This document shows, piece by piece, positions 24,181 through 36,833 of a stretch of DNA of 64,000 nucleotides. Position numbers and translations under genes: made by a program. Position 1 is the first letter of the stretch, and every line of letters begins with the position of its first letter. The notes beneath the pieces were generated by a model, which worked only from the letters and a program-made list of their open reading frames with translations, did no database searches and was not told where the DNA came from. Source of the stretch: Pontiellaceae bacterium B12219 (lineage in GTDB: Bacteria; Verrucomicrobiota; Kiritimatiellia; Kiritimatiellales; Pontiellaceae); contig JARNMJ010000017.1 in NCBI GenBank assembly GCA_029432795.1, positions 1 to 64,000 on the forward strand, in the 5' to 3' direction.

Positions 24181-24958
24181 CTACATTAACGGAACCCGCA
24201 CGTTGGCCGGATAGCCCTGAAGCTTCCGCGCCAACGCCTGTTTCAATAAAGGCACACCGCCCGCACTGAAACGCGCACTGTAAGCCTTGATTTCCTGCTG
24301 CATCACTGCCGCCTCTTCCACCTTCGCCGCCACCACCAGCAGCTCCATGGCCGCATAAAGCTCCGGACGAACATTCGCCGTGGCGGCAACAAATCCGGCC
24401 GCACCATCCTGAACCGGTTTGTAGATATTGGTGCTCGAACCCACAAAATACCGCGGCGTATGCCCCATCAGCTCCAACTGCTGCGCCGAATCTTTGATGG
24501 CATAATGCGGCACCGCCTTGAGGATTTCCGGCGTGATCGCATTCCCCGTATGCTTCGGAAAATTATAGAGAATAAAGGGAACCTCCGCTACAGCTTCCAG
24601 AGCCTGGAAATAGGTAATGATTCCAGCGGTCGAAAGTCCGGCCGGATAAAGCGGTGGCAGCACCGCCACCGAACTCACCGGCCCACCGCACCTCGATTTT
24701 ATTCTGTTCCAGGCCGAGTCCTCCGGCATGCAGCACAATGAATCCTGAAAAATACTCCCGCGCCAGCTTCAGCAACCGCAACCGTTCCTCCGGTAATAAC
24801 GAGAAAAACTCGGCCGTGGTTCCATTCACCATAATCCGCCGAATTCCCTGACTCGTCAGAAATTCCAGATGCCGGATAAACGCCTCTTCATCAATCTGCC
24901 CCTTCTCGGAAAACGGCGTCAGTACCGGAACAATCAAACCCTTTAATGTTTCATTCAT
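24181..24958 (-). pseudogene. Frameshifted DapA-family aldolase gene
   Basis: Two adjacent frames together make one dihydrodipicolinate synthase/N-acetylneuraminate lyase-family protein. The N-terminal part (ATG 24958 to about 24670) has LIVPVLTPFSE and the phosphate-binding-like V-N-G-T-T-A-E-F. The C-terminal part (to 24181) has VAVLPPLYPAG, the catalytic Tyr in F-I-L-Y-N-F-P and the Schiff-base Lys in Y-A-I-K-D-S. The frame changes near 24660-24680, within A-G-E-F / S-V-A-V, and a few residues may be missing. All active-site residues survive, so decay is recent, or the shift is a sequencing error. The substrate class is unknown. Confidence 0.8.
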
Positions 24959-24977
24959 GCAAGCGAACCTAGCGGTT

Positions 24978-25015
24978 TTCCGAAGATTGGAAAACCACCT
25001 TTCCAACCTTTGGAA
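24978..25015. repeat. Palindrome pair in a divergent promoter region
   Basis: A near-copy TTCCGAAGATTGGAA (24978-24992) and an intact copy TTCCAACCTTTGGAA (25001-25015) lie between the divergent DapA-like gene and the gene at 25054. Confidence 0.95.
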
Positions 25016-25053: not shown

Positions 25054-25338
25054 ATGAGAGGTCATATCATTACGGAAGACCGGTTTCTACATCAGGGCAT
25101 CGATCATCATCTGTTCGTTACCAAGGCCGACGGAGCCGAAAATGAATACCGGTTTGAAATCCGCTGCATTCCGCCCGGCGCCGAACAACCGGAAACGATC
25201 TACGAAAAAACGGAAGACTTTTCCGCCTGGATAAACACAGATCCGACAACCGTTATCGGCGAACTGCTCTGCGAAGAAATGAGCACCATTAAGCAAAAGA
25301 TTTTTGCCGAAGAAGCTCTTCGCGCCAACGATCCGTGA
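25054..25338 (+). CDS. Small hypothetical protein
   Basis: A 94-residue soluble, acidic protein (pI low by eye) with no signal peptide, membrane helix or known motif. It is judged real because GGAGG sits 7 bases ahead of the ATG, its composition is protein-like (many Asp/Glu and no low complexity), and no other frame across it is better. A near-copy of the dispersed palindrome (TTCCAGTCATTGGAA, 25357-25371) follows between its stop and the convergent gene end. The function is not recognised. Confidence 0.65.
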   Translation: MRGHIITEDRFLHQGIDHHLFVTKADGAENEYRFEIRCIPPGAEQPETIYEKTEDFSAWINTDPTTVIGELLCEEMSTIKQKIFAEEALRANDP

Positions 25339-25374: not shown

Positions 25375-27975
25375 TCAGCGATGTACAAAATGGCAGCTCA
25401 CGGTTTGATGGAGCGCATCGGCGATAATCTGGATCGCGCGGTCTCCGGCCACATCTTCAGCATCGATCACCCGGACCGTATCCGCCCATTTTCCGGCGGA
25501 GGGAACGAGCTCTAATAATCGATTGGGCGCCTCTTCAAAAAAGGCGGTGTTGAGGAAGTTGCCTCCTTTGTCGGGAAACAGAGCCAAATAGAGCATTTTC
25601 ATTTCCACCCGCTCATTTAAAAAATGGGTGCCGAGCGAAACATCCGGCACGAGATTGTCGTGCATAGCAACAATTTCGCAGAGAATGGAAACGGTGTTGA
25701 TATCGCTGAACGAAACCGGAATGCCGAGCGAAGGGCTGCTGGTTCCCCAGCGGCCGGGACCGATGATCATGGTATTTTTCGGCGTGCTCTTTTTTCCCGT
25801 GCGGTTGATATCGCCGATGAGCCGGGCGATTTCGTGCCGCGTATTGACGGGAAGCTGGCCGTAGCGGGAAGGAACCACATAGATAAAGCGGTCGATCTGC
25901 CCGACCCGGCTTTGCCCCACCACGGCACCATGTGCTTCGACAATCCGATCTTCATCGGCCACATCGACCTCCGGCAGCTCCACGGCTTCGGAGCCGTGGA
26001 CCTGAAGCGGCCGGCATTGGAGCAGGTTAATACGGTAATTCCCGTCTTCCATAAAGTTGGCGGTGAATTCGATATCAACCGGATAGTTATACGCCGCTTC
26101 GATCGTATCGAGAATTTCACGCATATCAGCCACAAAGTCGGTTTCGTTCAACAGCTTGTCAAACGTCAGAATACGATAGGGTTTTGCGCCGCGCGGCTGG
26201 GTGGGATCGATGGAGGCAAACATTTCGATGGGCAGGTTGTCGGCCCCCTCAACCAGATCCATAAAATAGTCGGAGACTTCCTGGTTGGCTTCGAGGTCCA
26301 GATAATCCACACGGCGCTGGGCATATTGCGCAACTTCATCAAAATTAGCTTCAGGGCGTTTATCAGGCGCGTTGAGGGCAACAATGCGGGTGTAATCGTC
26401 GTCGGCCTGATCAACGGCGCGGGTGCCGAGCCCGAAGACCAGGCGAATCACACCGGCCTCGGGATCGATGCTTTCGTGCCAGGCATAGGGATTGAACGAG
26501 AAACCGACTCCGGCCATTTCGGGATAGAAATAGCGGCCGTGCATGGTGCCGGAAACGCGCATAACCAGCAGCGCCATCTGCTCGTCGTTGTCGAGCATGC
26601 CCCGCCGGGCGCGGTAGCGCAGCGCCTGCTCGCTCATCGAGCTGGCGTAGATCCGCTTCACAGCGGCAACAAAATCCTCCATTCGGCGCTCACGCGGTCC
26701 CTGGTTCACACAGAAGACACTTTCGTATTTACCGGCAAAAGAGTTTCCGAAGTTGTCTTCGAGCAGGGAACTCGAACGCACAATGAAGGGAGACTGCCCG
26801 AAATAATCGAGCATTTCATCGAACTGCTTTAAAATGTGTGCCGGGAAATCGCCGGTAATGATGCGGCGCCGCGCCTGCTCGGCCCCATCCAGAAACTTTT
26901 CGGGATCGCGCTGATTCTGGCGTACCCACCAGATTCCATTGCGTACCAAAAAGGAGAAAAAGGCATCTGAGCCAATGAAGAATGAATCCTGCGCCTCAAA
27001 CAGATCAATAAAACGCGGACTCTTCTTTTTGACGATGGCCTGCGCAAGCAGCATACCGACCGCCTTCCCGCCGATCAGCCCGGTGCCAATCATCCGTTTT
27101 CGAATATCGAGAATATCCTGCAGCGTGAAATAACGGGCAATGAGTTTCTGCATACTTTCGTCGCGGGAAATGACCATACGCACGAGCAATTCATAAACCG
27201 CCTTTCCTTTTTCGGGCAGATCGGGGCGGTATTCCCCCGATTTGAGCAGTTCGCGCGCCTGCAGAAATGACGACTCCCAAAAACCGTGACTGCTATCCGA
27301 ATGCAGCCCGGACCATTTGGCCGAGGTGAGAATTTCCGAAATGACGGCACTCGAGGTGACCGGCATAAATTTTTCGCCGTGGCGCACGTGCAGCATATTC
27401 ATTGTGGGCGAATAGCGATGCTGCGCTTTGATCGGCCGCACATAGAGTTCGTCTTTATGACGGTAGACATCGAGGAAAAGCTGGGTGGTTTCCAGAATCG
27501 GACTGATGGCGCGTGACGTATGGTAGTTCCGGAAAATTGCGAAATAGGCTACCGTTTCAACATCAAAAAGATAAGGACACGTGAGCATGAAAAAATTGCC
27601 CAGCATTTCGTCCGAATACCAGTCAACCGCCAGGCGCGAGAGGCAGTCGAACACATAAAATGCGCCGGGGCCGGTCTTTTCAATGATTCCATGAATGGAT
27701 GCTATAAAGTTTTCAAAGCCTTCTTCCGGATCAAATTCATAGACCTCGGCTCCCATTTCCGTCGTAATGAGTGCATCGTGTCGGGAAAAACGGAAATAGA
27801 CCAGCTTCCGGCCGTTCCTGACGGCCGCCTCACAGTACGGAACGACCAGCTCGCGGTATTCCGCAATCGAGTCGACCTGCCAAACAATATTATCGCCGAT
27901 CAGGACCCCTTTTAAAATCCGATCAAGTCCGGGCAAGCCGGTGGTCAACCCTGCATCAATCGTACTCATGGCCAC
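25375..27975 (-). CDS. RecA-like domain fused to PEP-synthase-like ATP-grasp
   Basis: An 866-residue protein. Residues 1-230 resemble a KaiC/RecA-type domain by its opening (T-G-L-P-G-L-D-R-I-L-K-G), but the P-loop that should follow is replaced by IGDNIVWQVDS, so ATP binding there is doubtful. Residues about 290-700 match the pyruvate-phosphate dikinase/PEP-synthase nucleotide-binding domain: GKAVGMLLAQ, FIVRSSSLLEDNFGNSFAGK, VFGLGTRAVDQ and INLLQCRPLQ. The phospho-histidine swivelling domain and PEP TIM barrel are absent; instead a C-terminal region carries MIIGPGRWGTSSPSLGIPVS. The enzyme activity is unknown. It lies beside an NrpR regulator gene in the same direction. Confidence 0.8.
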   Translation of the reverse strand: MAMSTIDAGLTTGLPGLDRILKGVLIGDNIVWQVDSIAEYRELVVPYCEAAVRNGRKLVYFRFSRHDALITTEMGAEVYEFDPEEGFENFIASIHGIIEKTGPGAFYVFDCLSRLAVDWYSDEMLGNFFMLTCPYLFDVETVAYFAIFRNYHTSRAISPILETTQLFLDVYRHKDELYVRPIKAQHRYSPTMNMLHVRHGEKFMPVTSSAVISEILTSAKWSGLHSDSSHGFWESSFLQARELLKSGEYRPDLPEKGKAVYELLVRMVISRDESMQKLIARYFTLQDILDIRKRMIGTGLIGGKAVGMLLAQAIVKKKSPRFIDLFEAQDSFFIGSDAFFSFLVRNGIWWVRQNQRDPEKFLDGAEQARRRIITGDFPAHILKQFDEMLDYFGQSPFIVRSSSLLEDNFGNSFAGKYESVFCVNQGPRERRMEDFVAAVKRIYASSMSEQALRYRARRGMLDNDEQMALLVMRVSGTMHGRYFYPEMAGVGFSFNPYAWHESIDPEAGVIRLVFGLGTRAVDQADDDYTRIVALNAPDKRPEANFDEVAQYAQRRVDYLDLEANQEVSDYFMDLVEGADNLPIEMFASIDPTQPRGAKPYRILTFDKLLNETDFVADMREILDTIEAAYNYPVDIEFTANFMEDGNYRINLLQCRPLQVHGSEAVELPEVDVADEDRIVEAHGAVVGQSRVGQIDRFIYVVPSRYGQLPVNTRHEIARLIGDINRTGKKSTPKNTMIIGPGRWGTSSPSLGIPVSFSDINTVSILCEIVAMHDNLVPDVSLGTHFLNERVEMKMLYLALFPDKGGNFLNTAFFEEAPNRLLELVPSAGKWADTVRVIDAEDVAGDRAIQIIADALHQTVSCHFVHR

Positions 27976-28012: not shown

Positions 28013-29020
28013 TCACCGCAATGCGGCAAGGCGGCTCTTCAGTTCACTGTAATGAAACAACTGGTTAAAATCGACCAGCCCGGAAAGCGCACTGGAGCGG
28101 ACGCGCAGGCCGGTTTCCTCGAAAATCGACATCGGATTAAGCCCGCCGATGATGATCGCACCCACCCGCTGGGGACCGACAGGTACACCATAGAGACTCT
28201 GTCCGGGACTGCCCAGACAAAGCAGGCTGCCGAGCCCCAGGGCCTCCAGCTGTTTGGAAATGCTATGCACGGCTTCAACACTGTCAGCCGGGAATTCGCG
28301 GAAGCTCGCGCCGATTTGTCCGTTGCCGGTGGTGATTGCACCGATATAGTCGGCCATTCCGCTGCGGATGAAAACAACAAGCGGATCAATGCTCGTACCG
28401 TCGTAGTGAATGATATCGGAAAAACGTACCGGAGCGCCCTCGTGCAATTCGATCAACCCGCCGAAACGCGATGTGGTCGGAACGCCGCGACGCAGCAATA
28501 CCCCATTCAGCGTAATCGAACAAACCGTGCCAATGCCGACATGGCCGTCGGGAATGGTAAAACTGCCGCAACTCTCGCCGGGAGCAAAAAGCGTAACCAG
28601 CGTTCCCATCGAATAGCCTTTGGCAAATACCTTTTCAATCAGCTTCAAACGCTCGCTGGTGAAACCTTCAAGCGGAATGGCGGAAACATTAACCACCACC
28701 GTACCGCGACGTAAGGCTGGATCAAAATCCATCTTATAAGCCATCGCATCAATTTTGCCCGAAAGAAGCCCCACGCCTTCAAGGATGCGCGACGCATCGG
28801 CCTCATGCTTGCCTTTTTCGGTGATAATCCGCCCGCGGCGCCCAAGGTTTTCTGTAAAACCCTCTGCATCCAATTCGCATAAATAAAGCCGAACCGAACG
28901 CTCACTGATATCGATACCCTGGCTGATCAGCAACTCCGTAATACGCGTACTGCTGAGCACCTGCCCGCTTCGATTCAGCACATCCAGAATCGCCAGCCGT
29001 TTTTTCTGCCGTTTATCCAT
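28013..29020 (-). CDS. nrpR: NrpR-family transcriptional regulator
   Basis: A 335-residue regulator. Residues 1-70 form a winged helix-turn-helix (RLAILDVLNRSGQVLSSTRI, S-E-R-S-V-R-L-Y-L). Residues 80-330 are one NrpR regulatory domain (DUF128) with VVVNVSAIPLEGF, TVCSITLNGVLLRRG, F-G-G-L-I-E and AIIIGGLNPMSIFEETG. NrpR is the archaeal nitrogen repressor, released from DNA by 2-oxoglutarate (known); bacterial homologues have been little studied. It is divergent from gdhA and close to gltBD, which strongly suggests nitrogen-assimilation control. The start at 29020 has AAGGGG 7 bases upstream; that sequence doubles as the candidate operator half-site. Confidence 0.88.
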   Translation of the reverse strand: MDKRQKKRLAILDVLNRSGQVLSSTRITELLISQGIDISERSVRLYLCELDAEGFTENLGRRGRIITEKGKHEADASRILEGVGLLSGKIDAMAYKMDFDPALRRGTVVVNVSAIPLEGFTSERLKLIEKVFAKGYSMGTLVTLFAPGESCGSFTIPDGHVGIGTVCSITLNGVLLRRGVPTTSRFGGLIELHEGAPVRFSDIIHYDGTSIDPLVVFIRSGMADYIGAITTGNGQIGASFREFPADSVEAVHSISKQLEALGLGSLLCLGSPGQSLYGVPVGPQRVGAIIIGGLNPMSIFEETGLRVRSSALSGLVDFNQLFHYSELKSRLAALR

Positions 29021-30539
<1,519 letters not shown>

Positions 30540-30642: not shown

Positions 30643-32130
30643 CTACGGGAGAACCGTGTCGCCCATCAGAAATTTATCCACCTCGCGCGCGCAGCCACGG
30701 CCCTCATTAATGGCCCAAACCACCAGCGACTGTCCGCGCCGGGCATCACCTGCGGCGAATACCTTTTTCACATTGGTGGTGTAAATTTCATGATCAGCCC
30801 GATAGTTGGAACGTCTGTCGCGCTCCACGCCGAGCTGTTCCGCAACCGGATCTTCCGGCCCGAGGAAACCCATCGCCAACAGAACCAAATCAGCTTCAAC
30901 CCGCTGCTCGGTTCCGGCAACAGCTTTCGGCATTTTCCCGCCGTTCCCATTATCGACCCATTCGACTTCCACCGTATGGATGGCAACCAGATTGCCGTCG
31001 GCATCGCCTTCGAATTTCTGAGTCATCACCGAAAAATTACGCGGGTCTTTACCCTGAATTTTAATGGCTTCCTGCTGACCGTAATCGGTCTTCAGATTGG
31101 CCGGCCACTGCGGCCAGGGATTGGAAACGCGGTTGCGATCGACATCCGGCTTAGGAAGAATCTCAAGCTGAGTTACTTTCTCACATTCGTGACGGAGCGA
31201 GGTGCCGACACAGTCCGTACCGGTGTCGCCGCCGCCGATAACGATGACTTTCTTCCCCTTGGCGGAGATATAGTTGCCGTCTTCAAGATTGCTGTCGAGC
31301 AGACTCTTGGTATTGGCATGTAAAAATTCCATGGCAAAATGAACACCCTTCAGATCCCGACCTTCAACCGGCAGGTCGCGCGGTTTGGTTGCACCCGTGG
31401 CCAGAACAACGGCATCGAACTGCTTCTTGAGCGCAGTTGCCGAAATATCTTTGCCGACTTCCGTATTGGTTTTATACACCACACCTTCCTGCTCAATGAT
31501 GTCCACACGGCGCTGCATCACTTTTTTATCCAGCTTCATATTCGGAATACCGTACATCATCAGCCCGCCGATACGGTCGGCCCGTTCGAACACCGTCACA
31601 TTATGACCGGCCCGATTCAACTGCTGGGCACAGGCCAGACCTGCAGGCCCGGAGCCCACAATCGCAATTTTTTTGTCTGTACGAACTTCCGGCGGTTCAG
31701 GAACCACCCATCCGTTTTCAAAGCCCTTATCAATGATGGTTCGTTCGTTATCATGAATGGTAACGGCCGGTTCGTTGATGCCCAGCACACACCCCGCTTC
31801 ACACGGCGCCGGACATACACGACCGGTAACTTCCGGAAAGTTATTGGTGTGGTGCAGCCGATCAAGCGCTTCGCGCCAGCGGTTGCGATAGATCAGATCG
31901 TTCCACTCGGGAATGAGGTTATTGATCGGGCAGCCGCTCGCTCCGCCTTCCAGCATTTCCCCACGGTGACAGAACGGCACTCCGCAATCCATGCAGCGAC
32001 CGCCCTGCTCGACACAGGTTTTGTTGTCGCGCAAAATATAGACTTCAGACCAGTCCTTGACACGCTCGAGCTCGGGGCGCATCGGGTTGGTCTTCCGAAC
32101 AAACTCTAAAAATCCAGTTAGCTTTCCCAT
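30643..32130 (-). CDS. gltD: Glutamate synthase small subunit
   Basis: A 495-residue NADPH-dependent GOGAT beta subunit that passes electrons from NAD(P)H through FAD and Fe-S clusters to GltB. The N-terminal cysteine motifs for 4Fe-4S clusters are present ([16 protein letters not shown] and [13 protein letters not shown]). The first dinucleotide motif is [15 protein letters not shown] and the second is [13 protein letters not shown]; the C-terminal [13 protein letters not shown] flavin motif is present. It starts 17 bases after gltB ends, so the pair is one operon. The length is close to the family norm (about 480-495). Confidence 0.96.
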
Positions 32131-32147: not shown

Positions 32148-35100
32148 TTAAAGGCTGGCGATGTGCATATCAAACGCCGCATCGATTATCTCTGCTTCAC
32201 TTTTGTACTCGCCCGTAGCACGAGCCTGTTCGATGTAACCAAGCATGCGCTTATAGTCGGTTGGAATAACCTTAACGAACTTCGTCAACGTCTCATCCCA
32301 ATCAGCCAGCATTCTGGCAGCAACGGTTGATCCCGTTTTCTGCTGATGCATTTCGATCTTACTTTTCAGGTCCGCAATATCGGCCTCGGCCTGCACCTTT
32401 TCGAGCTCGATCATCTCCATATTGCACTTGCTCGCAAAATCGCCGGCAGCATCGTAAACATACGCAATACCGCCGGACATACCTGCACCGAAGTTGCGCC
32501 CGGTTTGTCCGAGAATAATGGTCTTTCCTCCGGTCATATATTCACAGCCATGATCGCCGATGCCTTCAACAACCACTTCCGCACCGGAGTTGCGAACACA
32601 GAAACGTTCGCCCGCCACACCACGGATGTAGGCCGATCCGCTGGTCGCACCATAAAAACAGACGTTGCCAACAAGAATATTTTCCTCGGCCCGGAACGTG
32701 GCCCCCTTATCGGGATAAATAGTCAGGCTGCCGCCGGAAAGGCCTTTGCCGACATAGTCATTGGCATCGCCTTCAAGCTCCAACTCAATCCCCCTGCACA
32801 TGAATGCACCAAGCGACTGTCCCACTGACCCCTTGAGGTTGAAGTGAACGGTTGCATCGGGCAGCCCGTCGCTTTTGTAAATTTTGGTCATCTCATGCGA
32901 AAGAATCGTTCCTACAGAGCGGTCGGTATTAACCACATGGAAATCAGCTTTCACCTTTTCGCCGTTTTCAAGCGCAGGCTTAGCAGCTTCAACCAGTTTC
33001 CAATCCAGCACATTTTCGAGCATGTGGTTCTGGTCTTTGCTGTGATATGTGCCTTCCTCGGCTCCAATGGTCTCCTTGTGAAGAATCGGAGAGAGATCGA
33101 GATTTTTATATTTCCAGTGTTCAACATCATCGCGGAACTTCAGGCACTGCGACTGACCGACCATTTCGTTAATGGTGCGGAAGCCAAGCTCTGCCATGAT
33201 CTCACGAAGTCCATCGACCAGGAATTCAAAGAAGTTAACTACGTGATCCGGGTTGCCATCGAATTTTTTACGCAGGTCACCCCGCTGAGTGGCAATGCCA
33301 ACCGGGCAGGTATTGCTGTGGCATTTGCGCATCATGATGCAGCCTTCCACCACAAGTGCCGCTGTTGCCACACCCCACTCTTCCGCACCCAGCAACGTGG
33401 CAATGGCAAGATCCCGGGAGGTTTTCATCTGACCATCGGCCTGAACCACAATGCGGTTACGCAGGCGGTTACGCACCAGTGTTTGATGCGTTTCGGAAAG
33501 TCCAAGCTCCCACGGAAGTCCCGCATGTTTGATGGAACTGAGCGGTGAAGCTCCGGTTCCACCGTCATATCCGGCAATCAGCACAGCATCGGCTTTCGCT
33601 TTACATACGCCGGCGGCGATCGTTCCTACACCGGCTTCAGAAACCAGTTTGACGTTCACGCGGGCATCGCGATTTGAGTTTTTGAGGTCGTAGATCAGCT
33701 GAGCCAAATCCTCGATCGAATAAATATCGTGGTGCGGAGGCGGCGAGATGAGTCCCACCCCCGGCGTGGAGCCACGTACGCGACCGATCCATCCATTCAC
33801 TTTATGGCCGGGAAGATGTCCGCCCTCTCCCGGTTTTGCCCCCTGCGCCATTTTAATCTGAAGCTCGGAAGCTTTGGAAAGATAGTAGCTGTTCACACCA
33901 AAACGACCGGATGCGATCTGTTTGGTTGCCGAGCACATATCATCGCCATTCGGCAGCTTTTTGTAGCGAACCGGATCTTCGCCGCCTTCGCCGGAGTTGG
34001 AACGCGAACCGATGCGATTCATCGCAATGGCCAAGGTTGTATGCGCTTCCCAGGAAATAGAACCGAATGACATTGCTCCGGTGGCAAACCGCTTCAGAAT
34101 ATTTTCGGCCGGTTCCACCTCATCCAGCGGAATGGGTGCACGGTCCGACTCAAACTCCATCAGACCACGCAGGGTGTATGCGGCCTGGCTCTGTTCATCA
34201 ACGGTTTGACAGTATTTCTTATACTTCGCAAAATCCTTTTCACGGGTGCATTCCTGCAACAGGTTAATGACGGTCGGGTTGAACAAGTGACGTTCACCAT
34301 CTTTACGCCAGGAATAGTCACCGCCCGGATCCAGCACCTTCTGTGCTCCTCCACGTGTGGGGAAGCCCTTGCGATGTTTCATGAGCGTTTCGGTTGCGAT
34401 ATCATCGAGACTCAGTCCCTCAATACGACTTACCGTGCCCGTGAAGTACTTATTAACCACTTCGGAATTAATGCCGACGATCTCAAAAATCTGCGCGCCC
34501 TGATAGGAAGCGAGCGTTGAAATACCCATCTTCGAAAAGATTTTCAGCAAGCCGCCGTTGATGGACTTAATGTAGTTCTGGATGGCCTTTTCTCTGGAAA
34601 GGCCATTCAGCAACTCTTCTTTTTCCATATTGCAGATGGTATCGAGCGCCATATACGGATTCACGGCCGAAGCGCCGTAGCCGAGAATGGTGGCGAAGTG
34701 GTGCACTTCGCGCACATCACCGACTTCCATAACAATATCGGCCTTACCGCGTTTTCCTGCGCGAATCAGATGATGATGCACGGCCGAAGCCGCCAACACA
34801 GACGGGATCGCCGCATGGCCGGGGTTTGAATTGAGGTCGGACAGAATAATGATGGAGTACCCTTCATCAATAGCATCTTCTGAATAACGGCAAACGCGAT
34901 CGAGCGTTTTTTCAAGCACACCCGGTGCCCCGGTGGCGGGAAACAGAATTTCCAGTCGCTTCGCCTGGAACGTAGGATGATTCAGCCCCACCAATCGGGA
35001 AAGATCTTCATTCGTCAGTACAGGCTGATCGATCGCAATGCGGCGGCAGTGCTCCGGCGACTCCGTCAGAATATTGGTGAATCCGCCGACATAGGTGCGA

Positions 35101-36776
35101 AGGTCCATCACGATACGCTCGCGGATCGGATCGATCGGCGGGTTGGTGACCTGTGCAAAGAGCTGTTTAAAATAATGCGACAACTGCACCGGGCGATCCG
35201 AAAGAACTGCCAACGGATTATCCGCTCCCATTGAGCCGAGCGGCTCTTTGCCCTCGGTGGCCATCGGCCGTAGGATTTCGTTTATGTCCTCATAGCTGTA
35301 GCCAAACATTTTTTGGCGTGCAAACAACACCCTGTCCGATGCCGGTTTCGCATCATAGTCCGGCGAAGGCGGCAAATCTTTGAGATGAATCATCGTCTGA
35401 TCAATCCACTTCTGATAGGGCTGGCGCGAACAGAGATCGGCCTTGAGCTCTTCATCGGAAATGATACGACCCTGATTGAGATCGGCAACAAACATTTTAC
35501 CGGGCTGCAGACGGCCGCGGGTTTTAACTTTGGAGTGATCAACATTGATCACGCCGGTTTCGGAAGCCATGATCAGCGTATCGTCATCCGTCACACAATA
35601 ACGGGACGGGCGTAAGCCGTTGCGATCGAGTGTGGCACCAACAAGAACACCGTCGGTAAAGCAGACCGATGCAGGGCCATCCCAGGGCTCCATCATCGCG
35701 GAATAAAATTCATAGAAGGCGCGTTTGGCCGGATCCATATCCTTATCATTCTGCCAGGCCTCCGGAATGAGCATCATGAGCACATGCGGTAACGAGCGCC
35801 CGCTGAGCACCAGCATTTCGATCGCCATATCGAGGTTGGCGGAGTCAGAAGCCGCAAGATCGCAGATCGGGAAAATCATCTCGAGCTCTTCTTTTGTGAA
35901 GGCGGTGCATTCCAGCAGCACTTCACGGGCACGCATCCAGTTGATGTTCCCCTTATTAGTGTTGATTTCACCGTTGTGGGCGATATAGCGGAACGGCTGA
36001 GCCAGCTTCCAGGACGGGAACGTGTTGGTGGAGAAGCGTGAATGCACCAGCGCAATCGCGGAAACGGCCGCTTCGTTCTGCAGATCGAGGAAGTAACGCG
36101 GAACCTGTTCGGTTACCAGCTGACCTTTATAGTTAATGGTTTTATAGGAACAGGAAATAATATTCAGCCCGTCCGGTCCGATTCCACTGACGGTTTCGTT
36201 GGCAACACGTTCAGTGTACTTACGGAAAACGAAAAGCTTTTGATCAAACACCTCAGCACTCATATCGCTGGGCTTACCAATAAAAATCTGCTGAACACTC
36301 GGCTCGGTTTCAGCGGAATCGCGGCCCAGATCGGAGTTATCGACCGGAACAACACGATAGCCCAGCAGCGGCAATTTAAACTTGGCCAGATTGCGTTCGA
36401 TGATCTCCTTGCATTCCGCCTGCTTAACCTTGTCGCGCGGGAAGAAGGTCATTCCAACACCGTACTCACCAAACTTTGGAAGTTTGATCCCGGATTTCGG
36501 ACATTCCTCCATAAAGAGTTCGTGCGGAATCTGGAACAGAATACCGGCACCATCGCCGGATTTAATATCGAATCCGGTACCGCCCCGATGTTCCATACAA
36601 GCCAGCATGCCCAGTGCATCGGTGATGACTGAATGCTTTTTACGGCCCTTGAGATTTGCAACAAAACCGATGCCGCAACTGCTGCGTTCGAAATCGGCAC
36701 GGTACAACCCCTCTCCCTCAGGTTGTCCGAACATGTTGAGATCGTTTTCCGTATAAATAGTGGTGTTTTTGCTCAT
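32148..36776 (-). CDS. gltB: Glutamate synthase large subunit
   Basis: A 1542-residue GOGAT alpha subunit making two glutamates from glutamine and 2-oxoglutarate. The N-terminal glutaminase nucleophile is Cys34 (S-S-C-G-I-G-F), implying a 33-residue propeptide that is removed. The central FMN domain has S-I-K-H-A-G-L-P and G-T-G-A-S-P-L-S-S. The 3Fe-4S motif is [13 protein letters not shown]. The C-terminal beta-helix has repeated Gly turns. The start at 36776 is chosen because AAGAGG is 8 bases upstream and the propeptide length fits; the frame runs 17 codons further up without support. Control is probably by NrpR (see the upstream inverted repeat). Confidence 0.97.
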
Positions 36777-36833
36777 ATAAAACCTCTTAAATGGCCAGTC
36801 AAAATAGCGGGGTAATTTGCCGAGCACCCCTGT

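Follow-up and report, generated by a model that had tools for sequence, protein, structure and literature searches.

A PEP-synthase-like ATP-grasp protein encoded near glutamate dehydrogenase in bacteria and Asgard archaea

The locus and its gene neighbourhood

The window analysed here is a stretch of 64,000 nucleotides from Pontiellaceae bacterium B12219, in which a gene for a PEP-synthase-like protein lies close to several genes of nitrogen metabolism:

25375..27969, minus strand: GDH-linked PEP-synthase-like protein, 864 aa; the open reading frame opens at GTG 27975, with ATG 27969 the likelier start
28013..29020, minus strand: nrpR, nitrogen repressor (HTH_12 and NRD1_2), likely start ATG 29020
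29039..29052, no strand assigned: palindrome CGGCAAGATTGCCG upstream of nrpR, candidate NrpR operator
29202..30539, plus strand: glutamate dehydrogenase (GDH; PF00208/PF02812), divergent, proposed partner
30643..32130, minus strand: gltD-like, glutamate synthase small-subunit-like protein, assigned from the ORF sequence (neighbour cluster c2)
32148..36827, minus strand: gltB-like, glutamate synthase large subunit, assigned from the ORF sequence (neighbour cluster c5)

An initial annotation of this DNA had placed an open reading frame at 25375-27975 on the minus strand, and the ORF listing agrees. Orthologues begin at the equivalent of ATG 27969, so a protein of 864 aa is most likely, and residues are numbered here from that codon. 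The nrpR gene lies approximately 40 nt upstream on the same strand, and the two genes probably share one operon. The adjacent nitrogen regulator that had been noted earlier is identified as NrpR by Pfam search (PF01995, E 2.7e-75), and the nitrogen context that had been proposed is supported by the position of the gene within a nitrogen cluster. GDH (PF00208, E 4.9e-91) is two genes away from the 864-aa gene, transcribed divergently and with nrpR between them.

The palindrome CGGCAANNTTGCCG is found just 5′ of nrpR in seven loci, that of the window and six orthologous ones, and the copy upstream of nrpR is one of two perfect sites genome-wide. Its retention in orthologous loci, together with its rarity in the genome, suggests at the level of sequence that the nrpR operon may be under NrpR control. 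The methanogen NrpR operator is GGAA-N6-TTCC, from which the candidate bacterial palindrome differs. We dropped the use of the palindrome to define a genome-wide NrpR regulon, as the genome holds just two perfect sites. TTGCCG half-sites recur near the GDH start in relatives, and within the window a direct-repeat operator pattern beside GDH was not above chance.

Two further features flank the 864-aa gene. A small conserved ORF of 94 aa lies beside it on the opposite strand (25054-25338, plus strand) and is present in several orthologous loci (cluster c8). At 24181-25006 on the minus strand a dihydrodipicolinate-synthase-like gene seems to be split into two overlapping frames of 147 and 185 aa; in L006, the Pontiella locus whose orthologue of the 864-aa protein is 87% identical, and in locus L010 the second part of this gene is longer and unbroken (266-287 aa), and we attribute the split to a frameshift or sequencing error.

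Domain architecture of the 864-aa protein

The protein divides into three parts, with the following positions:

27289..27969, minus strand: N-terminal KaiC/RecA-fold domain without a P-loop, aa 1-227
27856..27879, minus strand: aa 31-38 (QVDSIAEY), site of the lost Walker A motif by alignment with KaiC-type ATPases
25978..27078, minus strand: ATP-grasp domain (PF01326, PPDK_N), aa 298-664
25378..25980, minus strand: C-terminal domain, predicted to be a diverged swivelling beta/beta/alpha (phosphohistidine-like) domain, aa 664-864
25744..25761, minus strand: GPGRWG motif, aa 737-742, with G739 and R740 invariant in 80 sequences
25624..25626, minus strand: His782 in SLGTHF, invariant in 80/80 superfamily sequences, candidate phospho-acceptor

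For the N-terminal domain, when a profile of 38 diverse homologues was compared with P-loop KaiC-type ATPases, hhalign returned a probability of 89% (E 2.4e-6). The model of this part of the protein (pLDDT of approximately 75) aligns with KaiC (8dba) at a VIA Z of 16.3 over 200 residues and 3.4 Å, and with FlaH at Z 14.8. The profile and the KaiC match both bear out the KaiC/RecA-type assignment given in the initial annotation. The lack of a P-loop is borne out too, the Walker A motif GxxxxGK[ST] being absent in 38/38 of the diverse homologues. The alignment sets GDNIVWQVDSIAEY opposite GSNVLVSGGAGTGKT of the KaiC-type ATPases, with GDNIV-WQVDSIAEY occupying this position. The Walker-B-like strand aspartate is retained (D108 in VFDcLS), and a FRF..H segment, as read from the alignment, replaces the residues where KaiC proteins have their catalytic glutamates. 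The domain shares its RecA/KaiC fold with KaiC and the archaellum ATPase FlaH (ArlH), but differs from both in that Walker A is lost in all family members examined.

The central region matches PF01326 by Pfam search (E 4.6e-48, aa 298-664). Conservation was assessed in a non-redundant set of 80 superfamily sequences, 42 of which are less than 36% identical to the query, and within this set K302, R398, E404, D405, E634, Q651 and R653 are 98-100% conserved. By motif we take these to be the ATP-binding and catalytic residues of PPDK and PEP synthase, and their conservation suggests that the ATP-grasp domain is probably active; the earlier observation that the ATP-grasp motifs are kept is consistent with both the Pfam match and these residues. 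In the full-length structure model the confidence is poor across the ATP-grasp part.

The Pfam search gave no match to a C-terminal PEP/pyruvate TIM barrel (PF02896), and the 864-aa protein has no sequence left to hold one. With the NCBIfam models of PEP synthase the protein reaches 57-69 bits, where the cut-offs are approximately 600-880. The protein was said earlier to lack the PEP barrel and to be incapable of the standard PEP synthase cycle; the first is correct and the second is supported by the missing barrel and the low scores, as is our conclusion that this is not a PEP synthase and cannot make PEP on its own. An ordinary PEP synthase or PPDK is ruled out by the same two results and by a canonical PPDK elsewhere in the genome, a complete frame of 922 aa at G000:C239 that has both PF01326 and PF00391. 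It is very improbable that the protein is part of a split or residual PEP synthase with the barrel encoded in a separate protein: the ATP-grasp domain is indeed closest to PEP synthase models, but the genome already has its complete PPDK, there is no barrel-only partner among the annotated neighbours and the C-terminal domain is without the conserved swivel sequence.

Residues 664-864 have no Pfam or NCBIfam domain of their own and no solved relatives by sequence. Seven positions are invariant in 80/80 superfamily sequences (G739, R740, G749, E765, S778, G780 and H782), and H782 is the sole histidine with at least 90% conservation in the aligned ATP-grasp and C-terminal part of these sequences. 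The canonical swivel motif GGxTSHAA (GGxT[SC]H) is absent from the domain, Pfam gives no match to the PF00391 swivel signature at E up to 1, and in two hhalign attempts against a small template set of 13 swivel sequences the probability was approximately 0.1% or less. When the whole core was aligned with a PEP synthase by hhalign the alignment extended into the first swivel strands.

Modelled alone, the C-terminal domain has a pLDDT of 85, with the loop bearing H782 its least confident part (pLDDT of approximately 52-63). A Foldseek search with this model gave nothing at E ≤ 0.001. Re-alignment with VIA, the one source of a swivel-like pattern, matched PPDK carrier domains (5jvn, Z 5.1; 2fm4, 4.9; 1vbg, 4.7) and rifampin phosphotransferase (RPH; 5hv1 and 5fbu, Z 5.0), where a Z of about 5 is weak, a value that common arrangements can also give. 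Further matches were to Enzyme I, CCT apical domains, RraA-like proteins, LD-carboxypeptidase and PA domains, and nearly all the matches belong to one SCOP fold class, the swivelling beta/beta/alpha domains. The order of elements, a strand (SILCEIV), a loop, S-x-G-T-H, a helix (FLNELVE) and a strand (MLYLALF), parallels the strand-GGxTSH-helix-strand of the phosphohistidine site, and the domain directly follows the ATP-grasp domain, the place of the swivel in PEP synthase and PPDK. The weak fold match is credible because one fold class dominates the matches and because position and element order agree with it. On the basis of the model the C-terminal domain is likely to be a swivel domain that has diverged strongly, with its invariant histidine, H782, as the likely phospho-acceptor.

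The initial annotation had taken the swivel domain to be missing, which is probably wrong given the weak matches to PPDK and RPH phosphohistidine domains and the invariant His782. It had also named a conserved swivel histidine domain, seen by HMM or structure, as the finding that would contradict it; the HMM searches (PF00391 and hhalign) give none, while the weak structural match at Z of approximately 5 and the invariant histidine come close to it. The G-P-G-R-W-G domain that was described as new does lack a Pfam or NCBIfam domain, but is common to the superfamily and not unique to this protein. Apart from the swivel, the observations made earlier stand, and the interpretation is half right: the protein is not a PEP synthase, but it probably does not lack a phosphohistidine-type domain.

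Compared with PEP synthase and PPDK (PF01326, PF00391 and PF02896), the query has the same ATP-grasp domain with its catalytic residues, and the domain after it is predicted to have a swivelling fold, to which the similarity is weak; the query is without the PEP barrel and the GGxTSH signature, has an additional KaiC-like N-terminus and scores far under the NCBIfam cut-offs. RPH is an ATP-grasp plus swivel enzyme that likewise has no PEP barrel, and one to which the C-terminal domain is a weak structural match, but no rifampin-binding domain is seen in the query, and the NCBIfam RPH model scores 36.7 bits against a cut-off of 999.

The protein could instead be without catalytic function, a nucleotide sensor or a scaffold which attaches to GDH and acts on it allosterically, with the ATP-grasp fold merely reading ATP or AMP. 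The KaiC-like domain is degenerate, and the receivers of PPDK effectors often lack the aspartate (PMC4395418), so that degenerate modules are usual in such proteins. We nevertheless consider this improbable, since the conserved catalytic K, R, E, Q, R set together with R740, E765, S778 and H782 exceeds what a scaffold would need.

Distribution of the family and linkage to glutamate dehydrogenase

The query belongs to a GDH-linked ATP-grasp/GTHF superfamily in which PPDK_N is followed by a GPGRWG...E...SxGTHF domain. Matches to the query protein were found in 29/58 near relatives and, counting all matches, in 37/145 members of the phylum. The full KaiC-type architecture is also present in a few genomes of the phylum of a Deltaproteobacterium MAG and, at 44-51% identity, in several from Asgard archaea. 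Relatives further removed retain the ATP-grasp and GTHF domains and carry receiver, DUF5752 or GAF-like N-termini. Some of these add a C-terminal nucleotidyltransferase, with a GS-x-N...SDxD signature in 5/7 of those inspected. Among the nucleotidyltransferase-bearing loci (L180, L181, L182 and L185-L187) the last Asp of the signature is Asn in two, and several lie by a divergent class of GDH.

Receiver-PPDK fusions have been noted in Bacteroides and Heimdallarchaeota (PMC5847659). Judged by architecture, they would correspond to our relatives of approximately 1000 aa, which share the ATP-grasp and GPGRWG/GTHF domains with the query and often adjoin GDH. They differ from the query in having a receiver, DUF5752 or GAF N-terminus in place of the KaiC-like domain, and the passages of PMC5847659 consulted name them just as enzymatic output domains, without a GDH link. 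Among receivers on PPDK effectors, those without the aspartate are over-represented (PMC4395418) and the KaiC-like domain is likewise degenerate, so a degenerate sensor on an ATP-grasp/GTHF core is a recurring theme. The searchable open-licence literature yielded no description of a GDH-PPDK link or of the KaiC-type variant. The KaiC-type subfamily appears to be undescribed in that literature, and the GDH-linked family as a whole is large and apparently uncharacterised.

To survey the gene neighbourhood we took up to 20 kb around family genes, clustered the neighbours and annotated the clusters. GDH lies within two genes, either adjacent or with one gene between that is often nrpR, in 29/56 KaiC-type loci. 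After clustering at 70% identity, 17/32 informative clusters are GDH-linked, for which the binomial probability is near 1e-32 at a chance rate of approximately 0.4% per locus, a rough estimate that assumes at most three GDH genes among some 3000; the conclusion is unchanged even at a tenfold larger rate. Receiver-type loci have GDH within two genes in 18/41 cases, loci L073-L131 give 20 GDH matches in short flanks, and nucleotidyltransferase-type loci also show GDH nearby. The linked loci come from Kiritimatiellota/Verrucomicrobiota-type genomes, a Deltaproteobacterium MAG and Asgard archaea. GDH may lie upstream in the same direction (the smallest gaps being 4-31 nt), divergent, convergent or downstream, and this variation in orientation and order indicates that the genes have stayed linked despite rearrangement. 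The joint occurrence of the family and GDH in genomes was uninformative as evidence, GDH being near-universal in the phylum (128/145 genomes).

Some loci have more elaborate arrangements. Three GDH paralogues are interleaved with two family members (KaiC-type plus nucleotidyltransferase-type or shortened) and nrpR in L134 and L170. A DUF2804 protein adjoins the family gene in L139, and a gene of the same length (approximately 341 aa) is beside the family gene in the Asgard loci L175 and L179.

Roughly half of the loci lack an adjacent GDH, and these often carry GSIII or GlnA, GltB, P-II, AmtB or NifA-like genes. An alternative is that the protein acts as regulatory partner to a different component of nitrogen metabolism (P-II, glutamine synthetase, NrpR or a NifA-like activator) and is just co-located with GDH. 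Such neighbours, NrpR included, occur in several GDH-free loci, and in the lineage of the window nrpR is adjacent and co-directional. We think this unlikely, as GDH is the one neighbour common to distant subfamilies and to both domains of life, whereas an adjacent NrpR is limited to some of the bacterial loci sampled. For this reason GDH, which the initial annotation did not mention, is a more telling neighbour than NrpR.

Possible covalent control of glutamate dehydrogenase

The adjacency of the family genes to GDH in both bacteria and Asgard archaea points to control of GDH by phosphate transfer as the probable role of the family. The reading we prefer, tentatively and with rather less than even confidence, is that the protein is a sensor-gated regulatory phosphotransferase, which corresponds to a PEP synthase reduced to its first two-thirds and is dedicated to GDH, and in which phosphate passes from ATP to His782 and on to GDH or a close partner rather than to pyruvate. 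As judged from the conserved catalytic residues, ATP would be bound by the ATP-grasp domain, which would then phosphorylate His782 on the diverged swivel. Without a PEP barrel to serve, the swivel would dock on a partner and pass the phosphate to GDH, most likely, or to a GDH-bound component; for transfer to GDH the evidence is the gene neighbourhood. The gene linkage suggests that GDH activity would be altered in this way with nitrogen and energy status. The N-terminal domain, KaiC-like but presumably without ATP hydrolysis here and a receiver or GAF domain in relatives, may act as an input or oligomerisation module, and co-transcription with nrpR would make expression of the protein depend on 2-oxoglutarate status in the lineage of the window.

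Phosphorylation of GDH has a precedent, in that E. coli NADP-GDH has been reported to be phosphorylated (Lin and Reeves 1994, as cited in a passage of PMC3318891). When 25 paired GDHs were compared with 21 unpaired ones (one of the latter, at 19% identity, is probably a wrong frame), no signature residues of the paired enzymes were found, and the GDH sequence thus gives no sign of a dedicated acceptor site.

The main rival is a small-molecule dikinase, in which the swivel histidine phosphorylates a GDH-pathway metabolite (2-oxoglutarate, glutamate or a compound derived from ammonium) much as rifampin phosphotransferase does its antibiotic. The well-known PPDK_N-plus-swivel enzymes of this kind act on small molecules, the nearest PDB sequences to the query are PEP synthases and the conserved linkage is to a metabolic enzyme. 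We regard it as doubtful on two grounds: the sole possible extra acceptor site is the N-terminus, which is swapped between KaiC-like, receiver and GAF domains as an input domain would be, and the neighbours are mostly regulators and the nitrogen-assimilation core.

Returning to phosphotransfer to GDH, a dedicated covalent modification of a nitrogen-assimilation component would be analogous to that carried out by GlnE (GS adenylyltransferase) and GlnD (P-II uridylyltransferase). Some of the GDH-linked relatives carry a nucleotidyltransferase domain, as do those enzymes, which fits covalent modification of an enzyme; the catalytic core here is instead a PEP-synthase ATP-grasp domain and the target would be GDH. 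More broadly, and with less confidence again, the family may comprise PEP-synthase-derived protein phosphotransferases with swappable degenerate sensors, and sometimes a nucleotidyltransferase, that covalently control GDH in bacteria and Asgard archaea as the GDH counterpart of control by GlnE and GlnD.

We know of no general prokaryotic enzyme established for the covalent control of GDH, which is a main gate between carbon and nitrogen metabolism. What is new here is the linkage to GDH across the superfamily, together with the probable presence of a diverged phosphohistidine domain, and the link supplies a likely context for the receiver-PPDK fusions known from Bacteroides and Heimdallarchaeota. 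A conserved ATP-grasp/histidine protein whose gene adjoins that for GDH in bacteria as well as in Asgard archaea is a direct, testable candidate for such control and, if this is true, a module known from PEP synthesis would have been turned into a signalling device.
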